A stretch of DNA of 64,000 bases from Arenibacter echinorum. GTDB lineage: Bacteria > Bacteroidota > Bacteroidia > Flavobacteriales > Flavobacteriaceae. Under the pieces are notes generated by a model. That model had not been told where the DNA came from. It was given only the letters and a program-made list of their open reading frames with translations, and did not search any database. Where the stretch lies: the NCBI RefSeq assembly GCF_003259375.1, contig NZ_QLLN01000001.1, positions 225,360-289,359 on the forward strand, in the 5' to 3' direction. Shown here in pieces: positions 49,763-64,000 of this stretch; positions within the stretch are counted from its first letter, which is position 1; every line of letters begins with the position of its first letter. Position numbers and translations under genes: made by a program.

Positions 49763-51937
49763 TTATGTACTTAGGATTTTTAATATTTCGATGGCCGTAT
49801 CGCTTATTTTAGTGCCGGGACCAAATATTGCTGCGGCCCCTGCTTTATATAAAAAGTCATAATCCTGTTTGGGTATTACCCCACCCACAATTACCATAAT
49901 ATCTTCGCGTCCATAGGCTTTTAATTCCTGCAGTACCTGAGGCACCAAGGTCTTATGTCCGCCTGCCAAGGAAGAGATCCCCAAAACATGGACGTCGTTT
50001 TCCACGGCTTGTTTTGCGGCTTCGGCCGGGGTTTGGAACAAGGGGCCAATATCCACATCAAAACCCAGATCGGCATATCCTGTTGCCACAATTTTGGCAC
50101 CACGGTCATGACCGTCCTGCCCCATTTTGGCAATCATTATTCTAGGCCTGCGACCTTCCTGCTCGGCAAAACTGTCGGCCATTTTCCTGGCTATGCCAAA
50201 GCTGTCATCTCCTTTTATCTCTTTTGAATACACTCCGGTAAATGAATTTATAATTGCCTTGTGCCTGCCAAAGGCATTTTCCAAGGCCGTACTGATCTCG
50301 CCCAGCGTAGCTCTTGCCCTGGCAGCCTTTATAGCTAAAGCTAAGAAATTTTCCTCTTGCAGAGCATTTAAATTGGCAGTTTTGGAGGAATTGGGCTTCA
50401 TTCTTTCATTTGCAACTTTGGTAAGTGCCGAAAGTACTTGCTGCACTTCATGTTCATTCCTATTTGCCCTGACCCTTTCTAAACGTGCCAATTGCTGTTT
50501 TCTGACCTCGGCATTGTTCACCTCCAATATTTGAAGTTCATCTACTGTTTTGGAAGGGTATTTGTTTATACCAACAATGATATCCCTGCCACCATCTATA
50601 CGGGCCTGTTTTTTAGCGGCGGCCTCCTCTATCCTCAATTTTGGAATTCCAGCGTCGATGGCCTTGGTCATTCCCCCCAATTCTTCCACCTCTTCTATAA
50701 GGGCCCATGCCTTTTGTGCAATTTCGTCAGTTAGTTTTTCTATATAATAACTGCCGGCCCAAGGGTCTACAGTTTTGGTGATTTCGGTCTCCTTTTGCAA
50801 ATATAATTGAGTGTTTCTGGCAATACGCGCCGAAAAATCCGTTGGGAGGGCAATGGCCTCATCCAAAGCGTTGGTATGTAGGCTTTGTGTGCCGCCAAAA
50901 ACTGCTGCAGCCGCCTCTATGGTCGTTCTGGTTATATTGTTGAAAGGATCTTGTTCAGTAAGGCTCCATCCGCTGGTTTGGCAATGGGTCCTTAAGGTGA
51001 GCGACTTTTCATTCTTGGGGTTAAATTGTTTTACCAATTTGGCCCAGAGCATTCTGGCGGCCCTCATTTTGGCAATTTCCATAAAATGATTCATCCCGAT
51101 TCCCCAAAAGAAAGATAATCTTGGGGCAAAATCATCAATATTCAATCCTGCTTTCAAGCCGGTTCTAATATATTCCAATCCATCGGCCAAGGTATAGGCC
51201 AATTCAATATCGGCAGTGGCCCCGGCCTCGTGCATGTGATAACCGGATATACTTATACTATTGAATTGAGGCATGTATTTACTGGAATATTCAAAGATAT
51301 CGGCAACGATCTGCATGGATGGGGCAGGAGGGTAGATGTAGGTGTTCCTTACCATAAATTCCTTAAGAATATCGTTCTGTATGGTTCCCGAAAGATCTTT
51401 TGGTAACACTCCCTGTTCCTCTGCTGCTACGATATAAAAGGCCATTATGGGCAACACGGCTCCGTTCATGGTCATGGAAACCGACATCTCATCCAATGGA
51501 ATATCCTGAAACAAAATTTTCATATCCTCCACGGAATCAATGGCAACGCCGGCTTTACCAACATCTCCCACCACCCGCGGATGATCACTGTCATATCCCC
51601 TATGGGTTGGTAGATCAAAAGCTACGGATAGTCCTTTTTGACCTGCCTTTAGATTTCGTCTGTAAAATGCGTTGCTTTTCTCTGCGGTAGAGAATCCTGC
51701 ATACTGCCTTATAGTCCAGGGCCTACTGACGTACATGGTGGAATAGGGGCCGCGGAGAAAAGGAGGTATGCCTGCTGCAAAATTTAAATGTTCCACACCC
51801 TCAATATCTTCCTTAGAATAGTTTTTTTTCAGTATTATTCCTTCCGCAGTCTCATATGGCAAAATGGAGTCTTGATCCAGAGTATTCTTTTCTGGAACTG
51901 ACTTCAGTTGAATATGTTGAAGATTTTTTCTTGCCAT
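49763..51937 (-). CDS. scpA: Methylmalonyl-CoA mutase large (catalytic) subunit
   Basis: 724 residues. The TIM-barrel domain begins near residue 55 ([40 protein letters not shown]), with [39 protein letters not shown] and [17 protein letters not shown]. The C-terminal B12 domain has the base-off motif [20 protein letters not shown] (DxHxxG), then [13 protein letters not shown] and [15 protein letters not shown]. It interconverts (R)-methylmalonyl-CoA and succinyl-CoA, linking propionyl-CoA to the TCA cycle. The small-subunit gene lies 76 bases upstream on the same strand. Confidence 0.96.
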
Positions 51938-52013: not shown

Positions 52014-53396
52014 TTATTCAGTTTTCAATCGCTCCTGTTCCCATTCTTCGGACAATCTTTTTTCAAAGATCGGTTCTATCAAGGTTTTGCGGGTATTGGT
52101 TTTTACAAAGGGGTATATTTCCAGATCATCTTTCATTTTATCCAATCTGGATGCATATTTATTGGTTCCTACCAGGATTTTATCGAGGCTATTAAAACTT
52201 TCCTGTTCCTTGGTGGCACTTTCCTTTATCTTTTTTTGAATGAGATGTTCCTTTAATTGCACAAGAAATCCACCACCTACTTCAATTTGCTTAAATAATT
52301 CCAATGCTTTGGATGAGAGTTGATGTGTTACGGACTCAATATAATAGGCCCCATCGGCCGCATTGTTCACCTTGTCAAAATAACTTTCATTTTTTAAGAT
52401 CAACAGTTGATTCCTGGCCATACGCTCCCCAAACTCATTGTCCTTATGGTATATGGCATCATACGGCGTATTCAATATTGTATCTGCTTCCCCAAGAATG
52501 GCAGACATACATTCCGTTGTCGTTCGAAGCATATTGGTGTTATAATCGTACAAGGTTTTATTTCTCAGAGTGGGCGTAGCTATTATACGGCAATGCTCCA
52601 AAGCTCCATATTCCCTTGCAAGGGTCCCGAACAAAACCCGTAAGGCCCTCAACTTTGCTATTTCAAAGAAATAGTTGCTCCCAACGGAGACCTTAAAGGT
52701 TATTACAGCACTTTTTAGCTTGTCTTTGTGGTGGTCGTTTAAGTGATTTAGATATTCATTGGCGTGCGAAAGGGCATAGGCCAATTGCTGTACCATGTTG
52801 GCTCCTGCATTTCCATAGAGCGCCACATCCACACCCAAGGTTTGGTCGTGATTTAAATTTATAATTTCCCCTAACAGTTTGTGATCTTTATCGAGGTTGT
52901 ATTGCCAGTTGCCATTCCTTGCCAAATGACCTATAATATCGACATTGGTGAAGACCTTTTGATGATGGTTTTTTGTAGCTGCCAGAATCGATTTTACAAA
53001 GTCGTAAGATAGAAATTGAAGATTAAAATGGATACATGTTTTGTCCAGGTCAATTTCATTTAGCAGTTCATGAATATTTAATTCTGTGGAAGGAATGGTA
53101 AAATAAATACATTCAGCGCCCCTGATTATAGCATCCGAGGCTTTTTTGTTGGCCATTTTAGCATTCCCAGCGTATATGCCCTGTGCTATGTTCCAGCCAT
53201 TTTCTCTGTGTAATTCGGATATATCGAGCGCCTTTAGGTCTTCAGAGTTGTAGAAGGGTTTTACTTTAATGCCTTCGGGAGATTCCCAAACCAATTTATC
53301 GTTGTAATCCTCACCTTGCAACTCATACTGGATCTTTTGCTTCCAAGCTTTGGAAGAAATCTCCTGAAAATCGCTAAAGAGTTCGGATTTACTCAT
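52014..53396 (-). CDS. mutA: Methylmalonyl-CoA mutase small subunit
   Basis: 460 residues. It follows the mutase barrel in outline (WKQKIQYELQGEDYNDKLVW, PFYNSEDLKAL, LAYALSHANEYLNHL, KLRALRVLFGTLAREYGALE, TECMSAILGEADTILNTPYD) but lacks the large-subunit active-site motifs and has no C-terminal B12 domain, so it is non-catalytic and shorter than the about 640-residue propionibacterial MutA. This form appears usual in flavobacteria. Its start overlaps the DivIC-like gene by eight bases, so transcription runs udk-divIC-mutA-scpA. Confidence 0.93.
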   Translation of the reverse strand: MSKSELFSDFQEISSKAWKQKIQYELQGEDYNDKLVWESPEGIKVKPFYNSEDLKALDISELHRENGWNIAQGIYAGNAKMANKKASDAIIRGAECIYFTIPSTELNIHELLNEIDLDKTCIHFNLQFLSYDFVKSILAATKNHHQKVFTNVDIIGHLARNGNWQYNLDKDHKLLGEIINLNHDQTLGVDVALYGNAGANMVQQLAYALSHANEYLNHLNDHHKDKLKSAVITFKVSVGSNYFFEIAKLRALRVLFGTLAREYGALEHCRIIATPTLRNKTLYDYNTNMLRTTTECMSAILGEADTILNTPYDAIYHKDNEFGERMARNQLLILKNESYFDKVNNAADGAYYIESVTHQLSSKALELFKQIEVGGGFLVQLKEHLIQKKIKESATKEQESFNSLDKILVGTNKYASRLDKMKDDLEIYPFVKTNTRKTLIEPIFEKRLSEEWEQERLKTE

Positions 53397-54538: not shown

Positions 54539-54709
54539 ATGATAAAATTAGCGTTATATTCTTTGGGTGTAATTTTTTATATGAAGTTTAAAAAATTAAC
54601 AGATACCCAACACGAATATGGAATATATTTGATTGTTTTTTTGGTAGTTCTTTTTTATAGTGATTCGTACTTTTTTCTTAATAACCAGTATTTTATTATT
54701 CTTTTATGA
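54539..54709 (+). CDS. Possible 56-residue hydrophobic leader ORF, ATGA-coupled to the next gene
   Basis: ATG 54539 to TGA 54707-54709. The product would be mostly hydrophobic (MIKLALYSLGVIFYMKFKK at the start, IYLIVFLVVLFYSDSYFF later). Its stop overlaps the start ATG of the serine-hydrolase-fold gene as ATGA, the classic coupling arrangement. The region is very AT-rich, which makes such frames likely by chance, and no homologue is recalled. The rest of the 369-base gap 54337-54705 shows nothing. Confidence 0.25.
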   Translation: MIKLALYSLGVIFYMKFKKLTDTQHEYGIYLIVFLVVLFYSDSYFFLNNQYFIILL

Positions 54710-55650
54710 CGGGTAGAACTCATTTTCAATTCAATGCACGCCTAATTTTAATGTTGGGTGTAATTTTCTGCTGTAGTTTGGTGTACTCTCAAAAGGACTT
54801 GCCCATAAACATAGATGATGCCAAAGTAAAGCCACTTCCCAGTTTGGTAAATAGCGACTTGCAGAAAAGTTTGGAAAAGGAGCTTATGTCCAATCCCAAC
54901 TGGAAATCCTTAATGAACAAGAACAAGATGGCTGTTGGCATAGTAGACCTGTCAAATCCTGAAAATGCAAAATATGCCAGTATTAATGGGGATTATATGA
55001 TGTATGCTGCCAGTTTGCCTAAAATAGCCGTGCTCTTGTCCTCTATGGATGCTATAGAAAAAGGGGAGCTTAAGGAAACCCTGGAAATAAAGAAGGATAT
55101 GCGTTCTATGATCAGCAAATCCAACAACGAAGCAACTACAAGAATGATCGATCGTTTGGGCTATGATAAAATTCAGTCCGTTATGACCGATCCAAAATAC
55201 ATGTTCTATGATGAAAGTAGTGGTGGCGGATTATGGGTTGGTAAAAGATATGGAAGTGGTGGGGATACCAATAGGGAACCCTTGAAGAATTTGTCCCATG
55301 CTGCCACAGTAAACCAGGTATGTAGGTATTATTATCTGTTGGCCAATGGCAAATTGGTGAATAAGGGTAGGTCCAAACAAATGTTGGATATCATGGGAGA
55401 TCCCGAACTACATCATAAATTTGTAAATACCTTAGACAATATAGCTCCCGATGCCAGATTGTACAGAAAGTCGGGCTCTTGGAGAACCTTTCATTCCGAT
55501 TCTATTTTGGTTTGGGGAAACAATCCCAATCGCCGTTATATTTTGGTCGCTTTAATAGATGATGCAGGAGGTGAGCAAATCATTAGGGACTTGGTAAGAC
55601 CTGTAGAAAAAGTGTTGAAGGCAGAGCGGGTGCATTTTGCCGTTAACTAG
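54706..55650 (+). CDS. Exported class A beta-lactamase-fold serine hydrolase (1)
   Basis: 314 residues. Signal segment LILMLGVIFCCSLVYSQ. The three active-site motifs of the class A/penicillin-binding fold are present: Ser103-Leu-Pro-Lys106 (YAASLPKIAVLL), Ser139-Asn-Asn141 (SKSNNEATTRMID) and Lys255-Ser-Gly257 (LYRKSGSWRT). The Glu of the omega loop of true class A enzymes is not evident, so hydrolysis of beta-lactams is uncertain; a peptidoglycan or ester substrate is equally possible. Start ATG 54706 may be coupled to a 56-codon leader frame. The nucleotide transporter gene follows after 126 bases. Confidence 0.85.
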   Translation: MTGRTHFQFNARLILMLGVIFCCSLVYSQKDLPINIDDAKVKPLPSLVNSDLQKSLEKELMSNPNWKSLMNKNKMAVGIVDLSNPENAKYASINGDYMMYAASLPKIAVLLSSMDAIEKGELKETLEIKKDMRSMISKSNNEATTRMIDRLGYDKIQSVMTDPKYMFYDESSGGGLWVGKRYGSGGDTNREPLKNLSHAATVNQVCRYYYLLANGKLVNKGRSKQMLDIMGDPELHHKFVNTLDNIAPDARLYRKSGSWRTFHSDSILVWGNNPNRRYILVALIDDAGGEQIIRDLVRPVEKVLKAERVHFAVN

Positions 55651-55776: not shown

Positions 55777-58632
55777 TTGAACTACCTTATTTCATTTATT
55801 AAAACGTTTAAAACCTACATTCTAAAGGCATTTGATTTAAAAGAGGAGGAACTGACCAAAACACTTCTACTTCAATTAAATATATTCCTCATTATTACGG
55901 TTTTATTGATAGTAAAACCTACTATAAATTCACTTTTTCTTTCGGAACTTTCTTCGGATGCACTGCCATTGGGCTATGTTTTAACAGCTATCATGGCCGT
56001 ATTGGGCTCTTTTTTTTACGACAGGGCCTTGGAAAAGTATCCATTGAATATTATTGTGGACCGCACCTTGATAGGATCCGTTATTTCTTTGGTAATATTT
56101 GGAGTAGCCTTAAATTTTAACCTTGGGTATGGATTTGCATTGTATATACCCTATGTCTGGGTGGCTATTTTTGGGTTGTTGACCGCTTCTCAATTTTGGG
56201 TAATGGCAAATCTGGTCTATAATGTTAGGGAAGCCAAACGCGTATTTGGGTTTATTGGTGCCGGTGCCATTGGCGGGGGAATATTTGGGGGGTACTTAAC
56301 CTCTTTATTGACCACTATTCTTAACACTGAGGATTTATTGTTTGTTGCTGCAACTCTCTTAATGTGCTGTTTGCCCATTACCCGTTATATCTGGAAGAAC
56401 GAAGTGTTGAAACTCAACCCTTTTCAAGTTTCCAGTCGCTCCAATCCCAAAGCCGAGTCCCCTTTTAGGTTGATAAAACAATCCAAATTACTTAGCCTAA
56501 TTGCGGTAGTCATCGGAATAAGCGTTTTGGTGGCCAAATTGGTAGATTACCAGTATAGTGATTACGCCTCTAGGTTCATTAAAGATCAGGATGAATTAAC
56601 ATCCTTTTTTGGATTTTGGTTTTCTACCTTGAGCGTTATTTCACTTTTAATTCAATTATTCCTCACTAAACGTATAGTGGGCACTTTCGGCGTAGGTAAA
56701 TCCTTATTATGGTTGCCTTCGGGCATATTGTTGGGATCTTTTTTGTTATTGATAGTGCCGCAACTTTGGGTGGTGGTATTTATTAAAATTGTGGACGGAA
56801 GTTTAAAGCAGTCGGTAAACAAGGCGGCTACGGAATTACTTTCCATACCCATTCCTATAGAAATTAAAAAGAAGACCAAGACATTTACGGACGTGGTCGT
56901 AGACAGCATAGCTACGGGAATGGCGGGCTTTATTCTAATCTTTTTTATTAATGGACTGGATATATCATCCACCTACATTAGTATAATTATTATAGGTCTT
57001 ATTTTAATCTGGTTGTACTTTATATATCATTTGAGGAATGAATATATAATTTCCTTTAAGAGCTTGTTGGAATATAACCCTACGAGAAAAGAGAAGGCCA
57101 CCAAATCGGAAATAAAGGTTACCTCAATCATAGAAACGGTAATCAGGGTATTTGAAACAGGGAACGAGAATCAGATATTGCATATGTTGCACAAAACATT
57201 GGAAGTAAAGGATGAGCGTTTCTTTTTTGCAATTAAAGCCCTATTGAACAATCCGTCTGCCAAGGTGAGGGCTTTGGCCATTGAAAATCTTTATTTTTTG
57301 AATACGGAGAATTTATGTCCAGCTATAGAGCCCATGATCTATGATAAGGATCAACAAGTGACCACCTCTGCCTTTCGATATCTCTTGAAGCGTTATCAAC
57401 AAAACCCAGTAGAACTTTTGGACAAATATTTATCGGTAGAGGACAATACCATAGCCAATGCGGCCCTTATTGGCTTATCCATGGAATTGCGAAATAATAG
57501 GGTAATGCAGGACCGATTTAGTTTGGAACAAAGAATTGAAAATACCCTAGCCCAGTTATCGCAAACCAATACAGAACTGGAAAGAACCAATAAGATCCTG
57601 GCCATTCTTGAAACTATTGGGAATGCCAAGCTAGAAACTTTCTACCCAGTTATAAAAGCACATTTATATTCCGATAATGTTCTAATTGCAAATACCGCTA
57701 TATTGGCGGCATCCAAAACATTGGACAAACAGTTTATAGATCTAATTGTTTCCAGATTATCGGGCAAGGATACCAGGAAATCGGCAATGGAGGCCCTCTA
57801 CTTTTATGGGGAGCCCATTATCGATATTATGTTCGAGGGATTAAGAATGGAAAGTATTGACCCGGACGACAGTGCCTACGTGGTTATGGTTATTGGAAAG
57901 TTCGATTCACAAAAGGCCATTAATATTTTGATGAAACTTACGGAGGATATGGAACATACGGTGAAAATTGAAGCTATTGAAGCTTTAAAGCACCTAAAGT
58001 GGAAATATCCCCACCTAAAAATAAGGGATCAATTTATTGTGGATAAGATCTTGGACGAGTGTCACCTATATCAAAGTACCCTATCTGTAATCCATACCCA
58101 AATAGTACTACAGTACAAAAAGAACCCGGAAAAGCAGGAAACCAAGGAAGAAAATGAAGCCAGAAATGGGCTTATACATTTGTTGGAACTGAGGTTGGAC
58201 AGGCAATTAAAACGAATTTTTCAATTCTTGGGAGTAAAATACCCGCCCCAGGATGTGGACCCCATTTTAAATGCCATACTAAAAGGTCAGGAGGAGCAAC
58301 GCATACATGCCATTGAATTTCTGGACAATATTCTGGATATTCAACTCAAAAAGGAATTGATTCCTGTTGCGGAATCCATTATACAAGCAGGGGTTATTTC
58401 CGAAGAAAATCTGAAAAATCTGAATGTAAAGGTTCTTAGCGAATCCGAAAGCTATTTGGCCCTATTAAAGCGTAAGGATATTAAGCTGAAACTGGCGGTA
58501 CTCTACTTGATCGAAAAAACCAAGGACCCTAAATTTACCCCCCTTTTGGAAATGATTTTGGAGGATTCTAATGAGAAGGCCAGAAAAAAGGCGGCCGAAA
58601 TCTTGAGTGATTTTAAAAAAATCAGCGTTTAA
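55777..58632 (+). CDS. Npt/Tlc-type nucleotide transporter fused to C-terminal HEAT-like repeats
   Basis: 951 residues from TTG 55777, the only usable start because an in-frame TGA lies just upstream and no early ATG follows. Residues about 25-420 contain some 12 membrane segments (LNIFLIITVLLIVKPTINSL, FWVMANLVYNVREAKRVFGF, IGAGAIGGGIFGGYLTSLL), the pattern of ADP/ATP-carrier-like Npt proteins. Residues about 440-951 are soluble alpha-helical repeats of HEAT type (NPSAKVRALAIENLYFL, DKDQQVTTSAFRYLLKRYQ, DTRKSAMEALYFYGEPIIDI). Whether it exchanges ATP and ADP or carries another nucleotide is unknown. It converges with the second serine-hydrolase gene (11-base overlap). Confidence 0.72.
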   Translation: MNYLISFIKTFKTYILKAFDLKEEELTKTLLLQLNIFLIITVLLIVKPTINSLFLSELSSDALPLGYVLTAIMAVLGSFFYDRALEKYPLNIIVDRTLIGSVISLVIFGVALNFNLGYGFALYIPYVWVAIFGLLTASQFWVMANLVYNVREAKRVFGFIGAGAIGGGIFGGYLTSLLTTILNTEDLLFVAATLLMCCLPITRYIWKNEVLKLNPFQVSSRSNPKAESPFRLIKQSKLLSLIAVVIGISVLVAKLVDYQYSDYASRFIKDQDELTSFFGFWFSTLSVISLLIQLFLTKRIVGTFGVGKSLLWLPSGILLGSFLLLIVPQLWVVVFIKIVDGSLKQSVNKAATELLSIPIPIEIKKKTKTFTDVVVDSIATGMAGFILIFFINGLDISSTYISIIIIGLILIWLYFIYHLRNEYIISFKSLLEYNPTRKEKATKSEIKVTSIIETVIRVFETGNENQILHMLHKTLEVKDERFFFAIKALLNNPSAKVRALAIENLYFLNTENLCPAIEPMIYDKDQQVTTSAFRYLLKRYQQNPVELLDKYLSVEDNTIANAALIGLSMELRNNRVMQDRFSLEQRIENTLAQLSQTNTELERTNKILAILETIGNAKLETFYPVIKAHLYSDNVLIANTAILAASKTLDKQFIDLIVSRLSGKDTRKSAMEALYFYGEPIIDIMFEGLRMESIDPDDSAYVVMVIGKFDSQKAINILMKLTEDMEHTVKIEAIEALKHLKWKYPHLKIRDQFIVDKILDECHLYQSTLSVIHTQIVLQYKKNPEKQETKEENEARNGLIHLLELRLDRQLKRIFQFLGVKYPPQDVDPILNAILKGQEEQRIHAIEFLDNILDIQLKKELIPVAESIIQAGVISEENLKNLNVKVLSESESYLALLKRKDIKLKLAVLYLIEKTKDPKFTPLLEMILEDSNEKARKKAAEILSDFKKISV

Positions 58633-59881
58633 TAATTTTGTCGATACTACTGGCCAAGGTCATATGGTCTGTTGCTGAATTCTTTCGCAATACATTGGTC
58701 ATAAGTACCACCATATATTTACAATTGTCCGGATGTTCTACAATGGCTACAGAATTCATGTAGTTGGTAACATTGCCCATATATTTTCCACAGGCTTCCC
58801 CTGTACTTCTATCACATTTGTATAAACTCCCCGATTTAAAATATACGGCAGCAGGTTTCAGGGCCGGGGATTGTGCATATCTTATCCTTCGGTCCGTCAT
58901 ATACATAAGGCGTTTCATTTCCAGGCTGGATTCTTGGTCCACCACCTTGCCCTGCTCCAACTGTATCAAGAATTTCATCAACCCTAATGGAGACCCTATA
59001 CTGCCCCCTTTATCGCCTACATAGCGGTTGGGGCCTGAGGTAAAAAAGCTGCCTAAACGCCATTCGTCAGTTGTAATTCCAAGTTCCCGTAAGGGTAGGT
59101 TTACCACATCATTGGCCAAATCGGTCAATTCCTTTTTTGGGGTAGTGCTGAAGTAGGTATCCGCTTCTTCCTGGGTCAGGCTGGGGTAGGATTCTCCGAA
59201 GGCGGCCATCAATAAGGCCTCCCGCCATACAATACTGGCAGCCCCGTTATTACTAACGGAAAGCATATGGTCTGCCCACTCAAACAGGGTAAAAACATCA
59301 CTCGCTATTACTTGTCTTTTTAGTAATTTATTCGTTTCCAAATTGAAAATGGGCACAGTGTGCTCATCTGTCAATCCCCAAACTCCCGACTTCACGGATT
59401 TGGATCGTAAAAGCTCCAATCGCTTTTCAAAGGAATCCGGGTATATTTTTTTTAATTGGGTAAACAAAGCTACCATTACGGCCAGTTTGCCAACACTTCC
59501 TGGTTGATAGCCGGCAGTTTCGTTTCTCTTGGCATATCTAACACTGTCTATATCCGAAATATCCAATACGGCAATGGAATAACTCTTGTCCAACCCCCTG
59601 AAAAGCGCGTTGATGTCCTTTTGGAACTGTTCATCTACACTTAGGAAGGCGGCAGTGCTGTCCTCCTTTTTGGATATTAGGTTCAGTTCAATATCCATAT
59701 AGGACTTTTGGGCGCCTGAAGGGATAACGGTGGTCGACTTTAGTTCCCCACTTTTAACGAGCTCCAAGTATTTTAGCCTTTTGATTCCCGTATGCAAATA
59801 GCCATCAATGGGGTAATAACTCATGGTGGTAAAGGCGGAACATACCAGTAATAGAAAAATATATTTTATATTCTTTTGCAT
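58622..59881 (-). CDS. Exported serine hydrolase of class A beta-lactamase fold (2)
   Basis: 419 residues. N-terminal membrane/signal segment IKYIFLLLVCSAFTTM. Active-site motifs: Ser129-Val-Gly-Lys132 (QPGSVGKLAVMVALF), Ser210-Asn-Asn212 (LSVSNNGAASIVW) and Lys349-Ser-Gly351 (VYFKSGSLYKCD). About 100 residues precede the fold, including a basic segment near residues 33-50. Different enough from the 314-residue protein to be an old paralogue. It starts one base after the stop of the swivel/ATP-grasp gene, so the two are co-transcribed. Confidence 0.82.
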   Translation of the reverse strand: MQKNIKYIFLLLVCSAFTTMSYYPIDGYLHTGIKRLKYLELVKSGELKSTTVIPSGAQKSYMDIELNLISKKEDSTAAFLSVDEQFQKDINALFRGLDKSYSIAVLDISDIDSVRYAKRNETAGYQPGSVGKLAVMVALFTQLKKIYPDSFEKRLELLRSKSVKSGVWGLTDEHTVPIFNLETNKLLKRQVIASDVFTLFEWADHMLSVSNNGAASIVWREALLMAAFGESYPSLTQEEADTYFSTTPKKELTDLANDVVNLPLRELGITTDEWRLGSFFTSGPNRYVGDKGGSIGSPLGLMKFLIQLEQGKVVDQESSLEMKRLMYMTDRRIRYAQSPALKPAAVYFKSGSLYKCDRSTGEACGKYMGNVTNYMNSVAIVEHPDNCKYMVVLMTNVLRKNSATDHMTLASSIDKIIKR

Positions 59882-59882
59882 C

Positions 59883-62789
59883 TTACATTTTTTTAGAAAG
59901 GGGAATACTTTTATCCAAATCTATTTTTGGCGTAATAGATTCCAAATAATTGGAACTCAACGCTTTCTTATTCTCTACAAAGGGGCGTATTTGAAACAGC
60001 CACAACTTATTGTTTTTGAATCCCAGTTCTACATCATAGGCCCCTTCATAATCCGATTTGGTTTCGGTAGCCATAGTTTCGCGAATAGTTTTGGCAAATG
60101 CCCTTATTTCCTCAATGTTGTTTTGGTTTAGGATGAAATCCTCAAAGGTGGACATTCTTTTTTCCGTTCCTCCCGCATTCGGAAGTCGATTGTGGTACAT
60201 TTCCCTAGCGGGGGCCAAGAGTTGGGTACCGCCAATATCCCTAATTAAATAAGTTTCCGCCGATTGACCATCTACAGCACCCCCGGCCCCCCTGCTAAAG
60301 GCAATGGTAAGATCGTCCAGATGGCCCGAACTGATGCCCTTGGTGATCAATACCCCGGAATAATCCACATCCACACTGGGGATTATCAAAATGGAAGGGA
60401 ATACATTTTCAGGGTTTAGGAGATATTTTTGGCGCCATTTAAAACTGCGTTCGGAATAGGGGGATGCCCAAACATCCTTAATTCCTGATATGATTTTTTC
60501 CTTGGCGGCTACATTGAATACAGTAAGGTTTAATCCGGCCCCGGTAAAATTCTTCAAATCTTCCATGTTGGTGTCACTTCTTAGAAAAACCGGGATTTCA
60601 CCGATTGGTTTTCCCAATACTTCTGTAAACCCCTCTTCCAGTTGTGTAATGAATTCGGACTTCATTGGCATTTTCTTTATGGCCTCCCTTAGGATTTCCA
60701 ATTGCCTTAGTTGATAGTTTTCAACCTCGCCTTCGGCAATGCCTTGGGAACGCATATTCTCCGCTTCCTTGAAGGTGGAATTTAAAAATTCCCAATAGCT
60801 GCCCTGCTGATCGGGCATGGGTTGGTCCATATGGTCCCTAAAGATGCCGAAGGGAATCACCAGACCTTCGACCACCATATCCGGGAACATTTTTTTTAAC
60901 TGTCCCAAATTGGCCGCCTTTGGACCGCAAAGTTTACCTGAATCTTCGGCATCCACCGCCCTTAGGTTTAATATGGAATTTTCGTCCAAACGGATATTCT
61001 CTATGGGCACTTCAATTCTTTCTTCTTTACGCTCTATTTTAATAAACAAATTGCGTTCCTCCTCGGACATGTCTTTTTCCAACTTCATAATAATGTTTCC
61101 CTTGTTGGACACCGCATAAAATACCTTTTCTCCGTTGTATTTTTGAAGACTTTTAAGATTTTCATCACTTAGGGCGGCATTGGGGATACCCATATTCCTT
61201 GCAAGCAATTGCACATGAGACACCATGTTTCCTTCTGATACCGTGGCAATTCCGGCCACTGGCTTAAGGTCAGACGGGGGCCGTTGAAAAATATAGATTT
61301 TGTCTGAAGTTACCTCAATGTCATCTGGAGATCCGCTGACCACTACCAATTCGCCTAAGGCATATCCAGGATTTAGGCCTCGTAGGCCACTTTGATTGTC
61401 TATGTCCATCACCATATTGGTCAAGGCGGACTCCTGGGCAATGATATCGCCCAGTTCTCCCACGGTTTGACCTAAATAAAGGGCAATGGAACCTCGAATT
61501 TTATCATCAATAAATCCATACGCCTTGGGTTCAAAAGCGGTGTAAATGTCTACTATCTCCTGATAATTGGCCTTTACCATGGAGGAACTCCATTCCACTT
61601 CCCTACGTGCATTTTCCAATATTGAGGTAAGCTGCCCTAAGGACATGGCATTGCTATTGGATCCCTTTAGGGATAGATTGAGTTGTTCCCATTCTGCCAG
61701 TTCTATATATCCTGCACCGGCATTCGCCATGCCCAAATAACAAACCTTGTCCAATAGACCGTTTAAGTCTTCCGGTTGCCATTGGGGAGAATTTTTAAAT
61801 ATTACTTCTTCCAACTTAAGGGAGGCGTCCAATAACTGAAGTCGGGCTACCGCATTCACTTCCTTTAGAAGGGCCTGTCTTATATCCAATAGCAATTCGG
61901 CTGTAGCAGGAATAAGCACAGCTGCATTTGTTTCGTTACTATAGCTAGAGGTAAAGTTTTTTATGGAAACCCCAATAGGGCTATCCTTGACAAGGGGGGT
62001 ATTTTTTTGTATTTGTGCAATATCTACTGGTTTGTAGAAATTAGCCATGGTCACCACTAAGGCATCAATTTGTGCTTTTACCTCATTCGTCAGCTTGTTG
62101 CTATTTTTAGACTTAAAGTCTTTTACTTTGTTTATATCCCCAGCATCGGGCTGACTATGGATTTTAACCCTTAAGTCCATAAATTCTGGGATTATGTCCG
62201 AAATTACCTTTGAATCACTCCTTATTTTTTGGGCTAGATTATCGTCACCATTATGGGGTATGTCTTTTAAGGACTGGCGAATGAGATAAAAATTTTGGGC
62301 TAAATTTTGAGTGTCGGATAATAGCCATTTATAAAAGTCAACGCCCCATGCTTCTTCGTCCTCGGCCTGAATGGCCCCGCGATAGAACTGCCCCTTTTCC
62401 AGGATCCAGCCATTATCAACAGTTTTTAAATACTTGTCCAATTGATATTGTTTAAGACGGGAATGGTTGTTTTCGGCGTCCCAAAATTCCTCCTTGGAGG
62501 TATAGGATAAAATTTGACCCAAATAGAGGTGGTTGCTCTTACCTAAATCGATAATTGAGCTTTTATAGGTGGCGTGCTGTACTCCAGGACCAATGTTATC
62601 GGGACAGGGGTCTTTGGGTTGGCGTATACTTCCATCCGTACAGAACCAGCGAATTTCTTTGTAAGGTCCGCGGATATCCTTTTTGTATGAGTTGATAAGA
62701 TCCTTTATTTCCTGATTGCCCAATTTTTGGCCTGGGCTTAATAATGGAAAGCAAAAGAGTAGGATATATATGAATATATGTTTTTTCAT
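59883..62789 (-). CDS. Exported dikinase-like protein: phosphohistidine swivel domain then PPDK/GWD-type ATP-grasp domain
   Basis: 968 residues from ATG 62789; the open frame to a TTG at 62810 is unlikely. Signal peptide MKKHIFIYILLFCFPLLSPG then Q. Residues about 30-410 are helical without recognised domain. About 470-570: swivel domain, VSHVQLLARNMGIPNA, with His525 as the phosphoacceptor. About 610-940: ATP-grasp, GPKAANLG (Lys624), VIPFGIF, FLRSDTNMEDLKNFTGAG (Arg737), IKDVWASPYSERSF, YSGVLITKG and FQIRPF (Gln933, Arg935). The order swivel then ATP-grasp and the KDVWAS..ER motif recall alpha-glucan water dikinase. No PEP-binding TIM barrel follows. The substrate is unknown. Confidence 0.75.
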   Translation of the reverse strand: MKKHIFIYILLFCFPLLSPGQKLGNQEIKDLINSYKKDIRGPYKEIRWFCTDGSIRQPKDPCPDNIGPGVQHATYKSSIIDLGKSNHLYLGQILSYTSKEEFWDAENNHSRLKQYQLDKYLKTVDNGWILEKGQFYRGAIQAEDEEAWGVDFYKWLLSDTQNLAQNFYLIRQSLKDIPHNGDDNLAQKIRSDSKVISDIIPEFMDLRVKIHSQPDAGDINKVKDFKSKNSNKLTNEVKAQIDALVVTMANFYKPVDIAQIQKNTPLVKDSPIGVSIKNFTSSYSNETNAAVLIPATAELLLDIRQALLKEVNAVARLQLLDASLKLEEVIFKNSPQWQPEDLNGLLDKVCYLGMANAGAGYIELAEWEQLNLSLKGSNSNAMSLGQLTSILENARREVEWSSSMVKANYQEIVDIYTAFEPKAYGFIDDKIRGSIALYLGQTVGELGDIIAQESALTNMVMDIDNQSGLRGLNPGYALGELVVVSGSPDDIEVTSDKIYIFQRPPSDLKPVAGIATVSEGNMVSHVQLLARNMGIPNAALSDENLKSLQKYNGEKVFYAVSNKGNIIMKLEKDMSEEERNLFIKIERKEERIEVPIENIRLDENSILNLRAVDAEDSGKLCGPKAANLGQLKKMFPDMVVEGLVIPFGIFRDHMDQPMPDQQGSYWEFLNSTFKEAENMRSQGIAEGEVENYQLRQLEILREAIKKMPMKSEFITQLEEGFTEVLGKPIGEIPVFLRSDTNMEDLKNFTGAGLNLTVFNVAAKEKIISGIKDVWASPYSERSFKWRQKYLLNPENVFPSILIIPSVDVDYSGVLITKGISSGHLDDLTIAFSRGAGGAVDGQSAETYLIRDIGGTQLLAPAREMYHNRLPNAGGTEKRMSTFEDFILNQNNIEEIRAFAKTIRETMATETKSDYEGAYDVELGFKNNKLWLFQIRPFVENKKALSSNYLESITPKIDLDKSIPLSKKM

Positions 62790-63012: not shown

Positions 63013-64000
63013 TTAGAGTCGGTGGTCTATCACAATAACGGGTTTTCTACTCATTTTTGGAAATCGCAACTCCTGAAGGGTTTTAAAATCGTGGAATTCG
63101 ATTTTGGGGAGTACCCTTAGTTTTGCCCTAAAGTGATCCTTTATAGTCTGCAATAAATCATTTGTAGGGTTGGAAGTAGCTATTTTAATACAAATTTCAT
63201 CCGTACCTATGTCGTTATGGTCTATCTCTATTACAAAGGCGTCTATTTCATTAAAATAGTTAAGTACGTTGTACATGGCCGGAGGGTATAGCGTGGTCCC
63301 CTTGTATTTTATCATTTGTTTCTTCCTGCCAATAACAGGGCCTAAGCGCTGTGTATTTCTTCCACAGGAACATTTTGATGAGTGCGCTTGGACAATATCA
63401 CCGGTTTTAAATCTCAGCAATGGTATACCTTCAACCCCTAGGGTAGTAATGGTCAGCTCTCCCGGCATTCCTTCTTCGACTTGTTGTTCTTCCTCATCCA
63501 AAATTTCGATGATGATCAATTCTGGATGATGGTGTCCTCCCTGTCTTGCAGAACATTCGGTAAAGGCCGTACTCATCTCTGTGGAGGCATATGTGGAATA
63601 AAGGGGAATGTTCCAATCTTTCTTTATTTTGGCTGCCAGCGTGTTCAATGAAAAGTCTTCATTCCGCAGTGCTTCCCCGATACATATGGCGCCTTTAATC
63701 CCAGATTCGTTGGGGTCAATACCGTGCTGTTGGGCATATTCTATGAGTTTCAATAAAAAAGAAGGCACAACGATAAGGTAGGTTGGCTTAAACTTAAGGA
63801 TGGAGTCCCATTGAAGTTCAGGAATTCCGGCACCTACCCTAATAATTCCGGTGCCTAACTTCCGAGCGCCCAAAAAATAGGCCAATCCGGCCATAAACCG
63901 TCGGTCTATAGTTGTTGTTAATTGTAAAATATCGTCTGCCGTAACGCCGGCGCAGTCAAAGGAGATGGCCTCGTTGTAAGCCAATCGATTTAGATCATTA
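63013..64000 (-). CDS. PaaK-like adenylate-forming ligase (phenylacetate-CoA ligase family), 5' truncated by window edge
   Basis: The frame is open to the window edge, so the apparent start TTG 63984 is not real; upstream in-frame sequence reads NDLNRLAYNEAIS. About 329 residues are visible of a family near 430. Family features: FKPTYLIVVPSFLLKLIEYA, GEALRNEDF, the AMP-binding YSTYASTEMSTAF, GELTITTLGVEGIPLLRFKT, TGDIVQ, and a CxC-type pair (SKCSCGRNTQRLGPVIGRKK). The C-terminal lid has KYKGTTLYPPAMYNVLN. It activates a carboxylic acid through its adenylate; the acid and acceptor are unknown. The 223-base gap to the dikinase-like gene contains no gene. Confidence 0.85.
   Translation of the reverse strand, partial: NDLNRLAYNEAISFDCAGVTADDILQLTTTIDRRFMAGLAYFLGARKLGTGIIRVGAGIPELQWDSILKFKPTYLIVVPSFLLKLIEYAQQHGIDPNESGIKGAICIGEALRNEDFSLNTLAAKIKKDWNIPLYSTYASTEMSTAFTECSARQGGHHHPELIIIEILDEEEQQVEEGMPGELTITTLGVEGIPLLRFKTGDIVQAHSSKCSCGRNTQRLGPVIGRKKQMIKYKGTTLYPPAMYNVLNYFNEIDAFVIEIDHNDIGTDEICIKIATSNPTNDLLQTIKDHFRAKLRVLPKIEFHDFKTLQELRFPKMSRKPVIVIDHRL

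Follow-up and report, generated by a model that had tools for sequence, protein, structure and literature searches.

Four genes, encoding an exported dikinase-like phosphotransferase (DIK), two exported serine hydrolases (HYD1 and HYD2) and a homologue of NTT-type ATP/ADP carriers fused to HEAT repeats (NTT-HEAT), are kept or lost together in many marine Bacteroidota. We propose, with a probability of about 0.6, that they form one envelope system in which NTT-HEAT supplies periplasmic ATP and DIK phosphorylates an envelope acceptor. An enzyme driven by ATP would be unexpected in the periplasm, and the NTT-type carrier gene that lies two genes from DIK offers, judging from its sequence, a candidate answer to how ATP might reach the enzyme. 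The original prediction for this window (the whole stretch of 64,000 nucleotides that was analysed) had described DIK as exported and equipped with intact dikinase machinery, with a swivel domain ahead of the ATP-grasp domain and no C-terminal TIM barrel, a description that stood, and as a member of the glucan water dikinase (GWD) family, an assignment that did not. It had also raised the question of ATP supply, without noticing the carrier. The four-gene neighbourhood of DIK, NTT-HEAT and two exported serine hydrolases is the new result relative to that reading. The features concerned are as follows.

59883..62789, minus strand: DIK, exported dikinase-like phosphotransferase, 968 aa (residues numbered from the ATG at 62789)
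62727..62789, minus strand: signal peptide of DIK, MKKHIFIYILLFCFPLLSPGQ, approximately residues 1-21 (cleavage site placed by eye)
61425..62717, minus strand: DIK N-terminal region, mostly helical, residues 25-455 (homologue alignment and AlphaFold model)
61035..61415, minus strand: DIK phosphohistidine swivel domain, residues 459-585 (sequence alignment and structure search)
61215..61217, minus strand: codon of His525, predicted phosphoacceptor, EGNMVSHVQLLARN (His in 72/72)
59952..60986, minus strand: DIK ATP-grasp (PPDK_N) domain, residues 602-946 (PF01326 E 5e-24; Z 21.3 to 5hv1)
58622..59881, minus strand: HYD1, exported or membrane-anchored serine hydrolase, Beta-lactamase2 fold (PF13354 E 4e-9)
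55777..58632, plus strand: NTT-HEAT, 12-helix NTT-type ATP/ADP-carrier homologue fused to HEAT repeats (PF03219 and HEAT_2)
55843..57072, plus strand: NTT-HEAT membrane (NTT-like) domain, residues 23-432
57127..58626, plus strand: NTT-HEAT HEAT-repeat domain, residues 451-950
54706..55650, plus strand: HYD2, exported serine hydrolase, Beta-lactamase2 fold (PF13354 E 6e-19)

DIK carries intact dikinase residues and an export signal

The DIK reading frame, open across 968 codons, is far beyond chance, since full-length homologues at 42-93% identity occur in many genera. The dikinase profiles gave a divided result: PF01326 (PPDK_N; Pfam) matched residues 621-946 at E 5e-24, scoring 85.6 bits (cut-off 27) and covering profile positions 4-318 of 328, which places the protein in this family, whereas PF00391 (PEP-utilizers; Pfam) matched the swivel domain below its cut-off (E 0.013, 15.6 vs 23.1 bits), as it also did in the homologue L084 (18.6 vs 23.1 bits). 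The AlphaFold model (pLDDT 83.4) supports both domains. In the structure search, residues 602-939 aligned with rifampin phosphotransferase (5hv1) at Z 21.3, and residues 459-585 aligned with the swivel domains of PPDK, Enzyme I and pyruvate kinase at Z 6.5-8.5, a middling score when taken alone. The loop of residues 519-526, which adjoins His525, is modelled at pLDDT <50; sequence alignment places His525 opposite the SHAA-motif histidine of PEP synthase 8a8e.

The phosphoacceptor His525 and the ATP-grasp residues Lys624, Arg737, Gln933 and Arg935 lie where the original prediction had located them and, together with Glu921, are invariant in 72/72 homologues. These 72 rows include two genomes twice (L033/L093 and L034/L095; L033 is from Cellulophaga baltica, an environmental bacterium with the cassette), and the invariance was counted separately from alignment A1, which took 54 of them. 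The swivel domain precedes the ATP-grasp domain, and the protein ends 22 residues past the latter, with no C-terminal TIM barrel, both as foreseen. The N-terminal 455 residues matched no Pfam family, and for this region the structure search gave only helical-bundle-type and similar rows, none of them convincing. It contains the invariant Cys50 and Cys62 (WFC..DG...CP), a pair kept in all 71 rows that reach it, and is possibly the acceptor-binding part of the protein.

Signal peptides were scored by a simple rule, not by SignalP. The rule was passed by 69/72 DIK homologues, in agreement with the signal peptide predicted for DIK, and many of the printed leaders end in a cleavage-site-like manner (..FSQ, ..AQ). 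Inspected by eye, the three that failed are L031, whose ORF is truncated, L085, whose start is misplaced, and L116, which has a hydrophobic leader lacking K/R. Among other PPDK_N proteins, 7/33 passed when any candidate start was allowed, and restriction to the first Met left 1/33 (L210, by eye not leader-like); the exported L021 also passes at the first Met.

NTT-HEAT and the two hydrolases

NTT-HEAT is convergent with HYD1, with an overlap of 11 bases. It matched PF03219 at E 1e-8 (34.9 bits against a cut-off of 21), covering only profile positions 162-491 of 491, and HEAT_2 (Pfam) at E 9e-18, while the profile comparison with AtNTT1 gave E 1.4e-11. The top three Foldseek matches (9j3n, 9j3l and 9j3m) are ATP- or ADP-bound NTT1 structures; NorA and VMAT2 ranked below them, and outward-open NTT1 was eighth. 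On the basis of the model, NTT-HEAT is thus predicted to have the NTT fold rather than the general MFS fold. Its inner loops hold 19 K+R, compared with 2 in the outer loops. The carrier alignment, A2, took 41 of 62 carriers. According to PMC5381601, NTT-HEAT proteins occur from cyanobacteria to Chlamydia and the functions of these fusions were unknown as of 2017. The cassette suggests a possible job for them.

HYD1 and HYD2 both carry the SxxK, SxN and K[ST]G motifs that define penicillin-recognising serine hydrolases. In HYD1 these are S129xxK132, S210-N-N212 and K349-S-G, kept in every row that covers them (70-71/71, with one row truncated where its contig stops), and in HYD2 they are S103xxK106, S139-N-N141 and K255-S-G, kept in 63/63. 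The leader rule was passed by 71/71 HYD1 and 61/63 HYD2 proteins. HYD2 is located upstream of NTT-HEAT in the same direction. The sole beta-lactamase-type model passed by either hydrolase is the broad PF13354, and both remain below the class A beta-lactamase cut-offs (NCBIfam SubclassA2 14/320 bits, class A 12.8/200); sequence searches that allowed E up to 0.1 gave no solved relatives of HYD1 or HYD2.

The four genes are conserved as a set

We examined 72 loci that were selected for holding DIK and include two genomes twice. HYD1 was directly downstream of DIK in 69/72 and within the fetched stretch in 71/72, while HYD2 and NTT were found within about 8 kb of DIK in 63/72 and 62/72 loci, respectively; the next most frequent neighbour families reached 9/72. 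The exact order >DIK >HYD1 <NTT <HYD2 was present in 49 of the 72. A link to the adjacent flexirubin gene FlxY was considered and dropped, the family being present in 9/72 loci, namely the window's own and those of eight records that bear the name Arenibacter. Scans for promoters and terminators yielded little beyond the shuffled background, and PADLOC, searched for a defence origin, returned a HEAT-repeat match only.

Across the Flavobacteriaceae, DIK was found in 71/397 genomes; exactly these 71 also have NTT-HEAT at E 1e-160 or better, and the remaining 326 do not, the two 397-genome samples being taken as identical from their equal size and matching handles. HYD1 and HYD2 were each present in 36/36 genomes with DIK and 0/44 genomes without it; the positives comprised 35 of the 71 in the family plus G593, and the 44 negatives were drawn from the 326, picked partly by handle number. 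Such co-occurrence counts ignore shared ancestry, although contrasts within a genus exist: of 17 other Arenibacter genomes, 16 carry both DIK and NTT, and the seventeenth lacks both. In G593, all four genes are retained though scattered over two contigs; the link among them outlasts the loss of adjacency.

The DIK tree shows carrier subtypes I and II in alternation, for example between G008 and G012 of Arenibacter, and the supported branches of this quick tree (SH-aLRT only) force at least three changes for each subtype. Several switches of carrier subtype seem to have taken place, with the pairing to DIK retained. G597 and G612, the most distant of the genomes with DIK, are without a cassette-type carrier: a divergent NTT-HEAT lies elsewhere in G612, and G597 has a single-domain NTT only. 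Divergent NTT-HEAT proteins (E 1e-98 to 1e-55) without DIK were detected in 9/395 genomes of the phylum. Over 50 loci, the four proteins show correlated distances (Spearman 0.71-0.84, lowest for the carrier against the dikinase and hydrolases), but this was not used as evidence because shared ancestry alone can produce it.

Proposed mechanism

In the proposed system, NTT-HEAT would be an inner-membrane protein whose HEAT domain lies in the cytoplasm, and it would swap cytoplasmic ATP for spent periplasmic nucleotide. Periplasmic DIK would take up this ATP and become phosphorylated at His525, and the swivelling domain would then hand the phosphate to an acceptor bound by the N-terminal region, with release of AMP and phosphate. 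HYD1 and HYD2 may be serine acyl-enzymes that work on this envelope material too, either ahead of phosphorylation or following it. Because these partners have a penicillin-binding/beta-lactamase fold, we guess that the accepting hydroxyl belongs to an envelope glycan or a peptidoglycan-linked compound. The data establish the linkage of the four genes, the rule-based export signals, the preserved active-site residues and a predicted carrier fold; outward movement of ATP, the phosphorylation, its acceptor and the hydrolase roles are inferred. We would give even odds to the fuller picture of a dedicated periplasmic ATP-chemistry system in free-living bacteria, in which the carrier exports ATP and probably returns AMP, the dikinase phosphorylates the envelope and two acyl-enzymes process that material as well. 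The weak sequence match of the swivel domain and the poorly modelled active loop count against the cassette model.

A review cites measurements of ATP in the E. coli periplasm and calls it unclear how ATP crosses the inner membrane there (PMC7432876). E. coli has no carrier of the NTT-HEAT type, so such a carrier may not be required for ATP in that compartment. A carrier homologue found in precisely the genomes, out of a family sample of 397, that have an exported ATP-using enzyme makes a concrete, testable case of this question. If our reading is true, the cassette would represent a new type of periplasmic phosphorylation and a bacterial counterpart of the ATP supply to plastids and the endoplasmic reticulum.

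Alternative explanations

The cassette might instead serve nucleotide salvage, with NTT-HEAT importing a product that DIK generates by running in reverse or by combining AMP and a phosphorylated compound into nucleotide on the outside. NTT carriers are exchangers whose direction is set by the gradients, and PPDK-type reactions are reversible, both of which favour such a scheme. The NTTs of intracellular bacteria are described as importers in PMC5381601. Those of intracellular parasites import as well. We consider salvage unlikely, since DIK is without the phosphoenolpyruvate-binding TIM barrel, there is no nucleotidase among the conserved neighbours, and the two serine hydrolases would have no obvious role.

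It is also improbable that DIK modifies or inactivates a periplasmic small molecule (Rph-like) or joins two compounds (PigC-like), with the hydrolases as beta-lactamase-like detoxification enzymes. By structure the ATP-grasp domain is closest to rifampin phosphotransferase, but a match of this kind is common to the superfamily (PEP synthase 2ols, Z 20.5); the partial NCBIfam matches of DIK include PigC and Rph, but the curated Rph model gave 41 bits against a cut-off of 999 (NCBIfam), and the domain order is unlike that of Rph. The beta-lactamase fold of the HYD partners fits a detoxification role, whereas HYD1 and HYD2 fall below every beta-lactamase model's cut-off. The cassette is, moreover, largely syntenic across genera and not mobile, plasmid and phage collections having given distant, partial matches only.

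An exported glucan water dikinase acting on alpha-glucans or algal glucans is quite unlikely. The swivel-then-ATP-grasp order and the SHV..xARN-type swivel motif of DIK are in its favour, as is one pairwise comparison, in which residues 511-843 matched a reconstructed GWD fragment at E 3e-8 for that single comparison. The reconstructed fragment is matched by PF22973 (GWD1_pHisD) at E 1e-31, whereas the same profile gave no match to the window's DIK at E up to 0.1, no match to the homologue L084 at E up to 5, and E 0.23 in the homologue L074 (11.5 bits against a cut-off of 27). Pfam scans of these three proteins detected no CBM, including CBM45. GWD1 phosphorylates glucans at C6; in PWD, a CBM20 precedes the swivel and ATP-grasp domains, and the enzyme acts on phosphoglucan C3. 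The order of the ATP-grasp motifs differs as well, RSD..EDL standing before VWAS in DIK, as in the PEP synthases compared, and after VWAS..ER in the reconstructed GWD fragment. Glycoside hydrolases are absent among the four families conserved around DIK, and in an ATP-grasp tree of Bacteroidota proteins only, with no GWD included, the DIK proteins form their own clade. The GWD membership that had been suggested was rejected on the profile, CBM and motif-order results: judged by sequence, DIK is most probably not a glucan water dikinase.

That DIK is no extracytoplasmic kinase, being an ATP/AMP-binding sensor or scaffold or having an inward-facing membrane anchor for a leader, is very unlikely, for although the region around His525 is modelled at pLDDT <50, the catalytic residues checked, including His525, are invariant, many of the printed leaders end like cleavage sites and the cysteine pair is kept.

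Comparison with known systems

No exported bacterial dikinase and no such four-gene cassette was recognised among the matches listed from open-licence PMC papers. PEP synthase and PPDK (PF01326 and PF00391) share with DIK the ATP-grasp Lys, Arg, Glu and Gln-x-Arg set and the phosphoacceptor His of the swivel domain; they differ in being cytoplasmic, with the ATP-grasp domain first and a C-terminal TIM barrel, whereas DIK is exported, swivel-first and barrel-less. Plant GWD1, and probably PWD, resemble DIK in having the swivel before the ATP-grasp domain, no TIM barrel, and RSD.N.EDL and VWAS..ER motifs. Unlike GWD1, DIK is bacterial and exported, has neither CBMs nor a significant PF22973 match, and carries RSD before VWAS, the GWD order being that of the reconstructed fragment. 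Rph and PigC likewise combine PPDK_N and swivel domains on a non-PEP acceptor, but they have another domain order and are cytoplasmic, and we know of no N-terminal helical region of the DIK kind in them.

Another comparable protein is L183, an exported PPDK_N protein of 1324 aa from another Flavobacteriales family. Like DIK, it has a signal peptide, an SHV swivel-like motif before the ATP-grasp domain, and RSSTNNEDL and QARP motifs, and it occupies an adjoining branch (98/90, long branches). It differs from DIK in its type IX secretion tail (Por_Secre_tail) and CARDB domains, and the identity is about 28% over part of the protein. Its 9.7-kb contig has one other ORF of at least 300 aa (798 aa).

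On the carrier side, AtNTT1, Chlamydia NTT1 and the NTT-HEAT fusions described in PMC5381601 share the 12-helix fold with the cassette protein, and the latter also share the HEAT fusion. Unlike these known NTTs, the cassette carrier is linked with an exported dikinase and a pair of hydrolases that are also exported, and its proposed role is to move ATP outward rather than to take it up from a host.

Conservation and layout of the cassette

The gene for the exported dikinase-like protein (DIK) lies beside three others, and the four together are referred to as the cassette:

59883-62789, minus strand: DIK, 968 residues from an ATG start in the window translation
58622-59881, minus strand: HYD1, a serine hydrolase
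55777-58632, plus strand: NTT-HEAT, an NTT-type ATP/ADP-carrier homologue fused to HEAT repeats
54706-55650, plus strand: HYD2, a second serine hydrolase

Among 397 Flavobacteriaceae genomes, DIK was found in 71, and NTT-HEAT matches at E 1e-160 or better occurred in exactly these 71; two further genomes held weak, shorter NTT matches without the HEAT part. The hypergeometric value for this overlap (~1e-80) ignores shared ancestry. Contrasts within genera are more telling for the DIK/NTT-HEAT link. The window's genus is represented by a further 17 genomes, of which 16 encode both proteins and one encodes neither; four more genera each include a sampled member with both and another with neither (G277/G049, G278/G050, G287/G062 and G289/G064), with a weak, short NTT match in G049. 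HYD1 and HYD2 were each present in 36 of 36 DIK-positive and 0 of 44 DIK-negative genomes. Within the sampled family the four genes are thus passed on together, and we put the probability that they constitute one functional unit at 0.95.

In a phylum-wide sample, DIK was present in 13 of 395 genomes, and NTT-HEAT at E 1e-150 or better was found in 11 of these 13 and in no DIK-negative genome. The most distant DIK genomes, G597 and G612, have divergent NTT proteins only. Weaker NTT matches occurred in 15 DIK-negative genomes, nine of them long (E 1e-98 to 1e-55), so NTT-HEAT as a whole has further uses besides its pairing with DIK. In G612, a single-domain NTT gene directly adjoins a divergent NTT-HEAT gene (L188:3880-8256), with similar matches in G609 and G753, a different nucleotide-carrier pairing seen in several distant Bacteroidota.

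ORFs around DIK were clustered for 72 loci selected for DIK (the window, 60 genome loci and 11 records, some cut by contig ends). The recurring families were DIK (72, by selection), HYD1 (71), HYD2 (63) and NTT-HEAT (62), and those ranking after them were found in 9 loci. HYD1 lies directly downstream of DIK in 69 of the 72, and the exact order >DIK >HYD1 <NTT <HYD2 is kept in 49, several others deviating only through extra called ORFs. In the broken cassettes L185, L186, L187 and L190, HYD2 and NTT remain together, apart from DIK-HYD1, so the two pairs look like two transcription units. Exceptions are G140 (L100, L184), where the carrier alone is relocated, and G175 (L118), where HYD2 alone is; G593 keeps all four genes, though scattered.

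Other neighbours were also recorded. An incomplete ORF at the window end (63013-63999, minus strand) matches the NCBIfam flexirubin biosynthesis ligase FlxY (E 2e-173); of the 72 loci, 9 have it next to the cassette, namely the window and eight Arenibacter records. Two methylmalonyl-CoA mutase-type ORFs (52014-53396 and 49763-51937, both minus strand), one Pfam-confirmed and the other assigned by shared cluster, adjoin the window cassette. At the distant G597 locus, a 342-residue protein bearing a type IX secretion tail (L084:13568-14596, minus strand) adjoins HYD2, and no carrier gene is nearby.

Export, domains and classification of DIK

A signal peptide had been proposed for DIK, and a leader rule (charged start, then hydrophobic core), which is a rule of thumb rather than SignalP or a localisation experiment, supports it: the rule is satisfied by 69 of 72 homologues, as against 1 of 33 other PPDK_N proteins (29 loci from a phylum search plus 4 more) at the first Met. 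That single control, L210, is not leader-like in appearance; with all candidate starts permitted, more controls pass, at internal positions. The three misses among the homologues resemble a truncated ORF, a misplaced start and a leader without K/R, and many of the homologues' leaders end in SQ or AQ.

The expected similarity to dikinase profiles is significant for PPDK_N, on residues 621-946 (Pfam, E 5e-24); the PEP-utilizers match, on 508-536, stays below threshold. In an AlphaFold model (mean pLDDT 83.4, 54 homologues as input), rifampin phosphotransferase matches residues 602-939 through its ATP-grasp domain, with Z 21.3 and an rmsd of 3.4 over 308 residues. Residues 459-585 resemble swivel domains (Z 6.5-8.5, middling taken alone). 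The catalytic residues named in the original prediction are present and invariant: His525, Lys624, Arg737, Glu743, Asp919, Glu921, Gln933 and Arg935 are identical in 72 of 72 rows, a set that counts two genomes twice, as are Cys50 and Cys62 in all 71 rows extending that far. By its residues DIK is a dikinase-like member of the PPDK_N superfamily, and it is very probably an active exported phosphotransferase.

The proposed kinship with plant glucan water dikinase (GWD) held for domain order but not for other features. PF22973, the GWD phosphohistidine domain, is absent from the Pfam listing of the window DIK and reaches only E 0.23 in one homologue. A hand-typed GWD fragment matches PF22973 at E 1e-31, and PPDK_N in three stretches. 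That fragment aligns to DIK 511-843 (E 3e-8 for one comparison). The motif order differs, however: RSD.N.EDL follows VWAS..ER in the GWD fragment and precedes it in DIK, as in the PEP synthases compared. Pfam scans of the window DIK and of the homologues L074 and L084 contained no CBM. We therefore reject DIK as a GWD. In an ATP-grasp-domain tree of Bacteroidota rows only, 17 dikinases form a single group of their own (support 100/99), whose neighbour is an exported protein that carries a type IX secretion tail (98/90), on long branches that may attract one another.

This neighbour, found in another Flavobacteriales family (L183:5628-9602, plus strand; also L021), is an exported PPDK_N protein of a second kind. 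It lies beyond the 33 controls, is 1324 residues long and has a leader; CARDB and a type IX secretion tail accompany its ATP-grasp domain and swivel-like SHV motif.

The carrier and the hydrolases

NTT-HEAT has 12 predicted membrane helices and, with helix limits set by hand from the model, 19 K+R in inner against 2 in outer loops, which places the HEAT domain in the cytoplasm by prediction. Its profile matches AtNTT1 (E 1.4e-11), and nucleotide-bound NTT1 structures occupy ranks 1-3 of the fold matches (TM-score 0.72-0.77 by target length), so the predicted fold is that of an NTT carrier. Eleven membrane-domain residues were checked, and each is identical in all 62 rows or in 61 of them. Carriers were divided by identity to the window carrier, with ad hoc cut-offs, into subtypes I, II and III (29, 14 and 19 rows); on a quickly made dikinase tree these require 7 changes, and supported branches force at least 3 for subtype I and at least 3 for subtype II. 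Subtype II occupies the same slot in two genomes of the window's genus. These changes suggest that carrier replacement, or differential loss of paralogues, occurred several times while pairing with DIK was retained. Within that genus, the carriers at loci L017 and L019 are of a different subtype (45% identity), whereas the same slot in L015, L016, L018 and L020 contains carriers 77-97% identical.

HYD1 and HYD2 are distinct Beta-lactamase2-type proteins. Both have leaders by the rule above, and their SxxK, SxN and KSG motifs are intact. Their scores fall far under the cut-offs of true beta-lactamase models.

Proposed mechanism and comparison with known systems

By the leader rule, DIK, HYD1 and HYD2 all carry putative export signals. 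NTT-HEAT would deliver ATP into the periplasm, where DIK would autophosphorylate on His525. The N-terminal region of DIK would recognise the acceptor to which the phosphate is then passed, and the hydrolases may work on the same material. The reaction would be modelled on those of PEP synthase, PPDK and GWD; GWD and PWD (phosphoglucan water dikinase), as described in PMC7569903, transfer the beta-phosphate via His to glucan and the gamma-phosphate to water. ATP supply by NTT-HEAT is somewhat favoured, the direction of the carrier being the weakest step, and any particular acceptor class is doubtful.

E. coli is without such a carrier, and ATP in its periplasm has been reported; a review of bacterial extracellular ATP treats the way ATP reaches the periplasm as unexplained (PMC7432876). 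A 2017 paper presents NTT-HEAT fusions as widespread and uncharacterised (PMC5381601). Among the matches listed from the open-licence literature, the DIK/NTT-HEAT pairing was not recognised and the system itself was not found described; its parts belong to known families.
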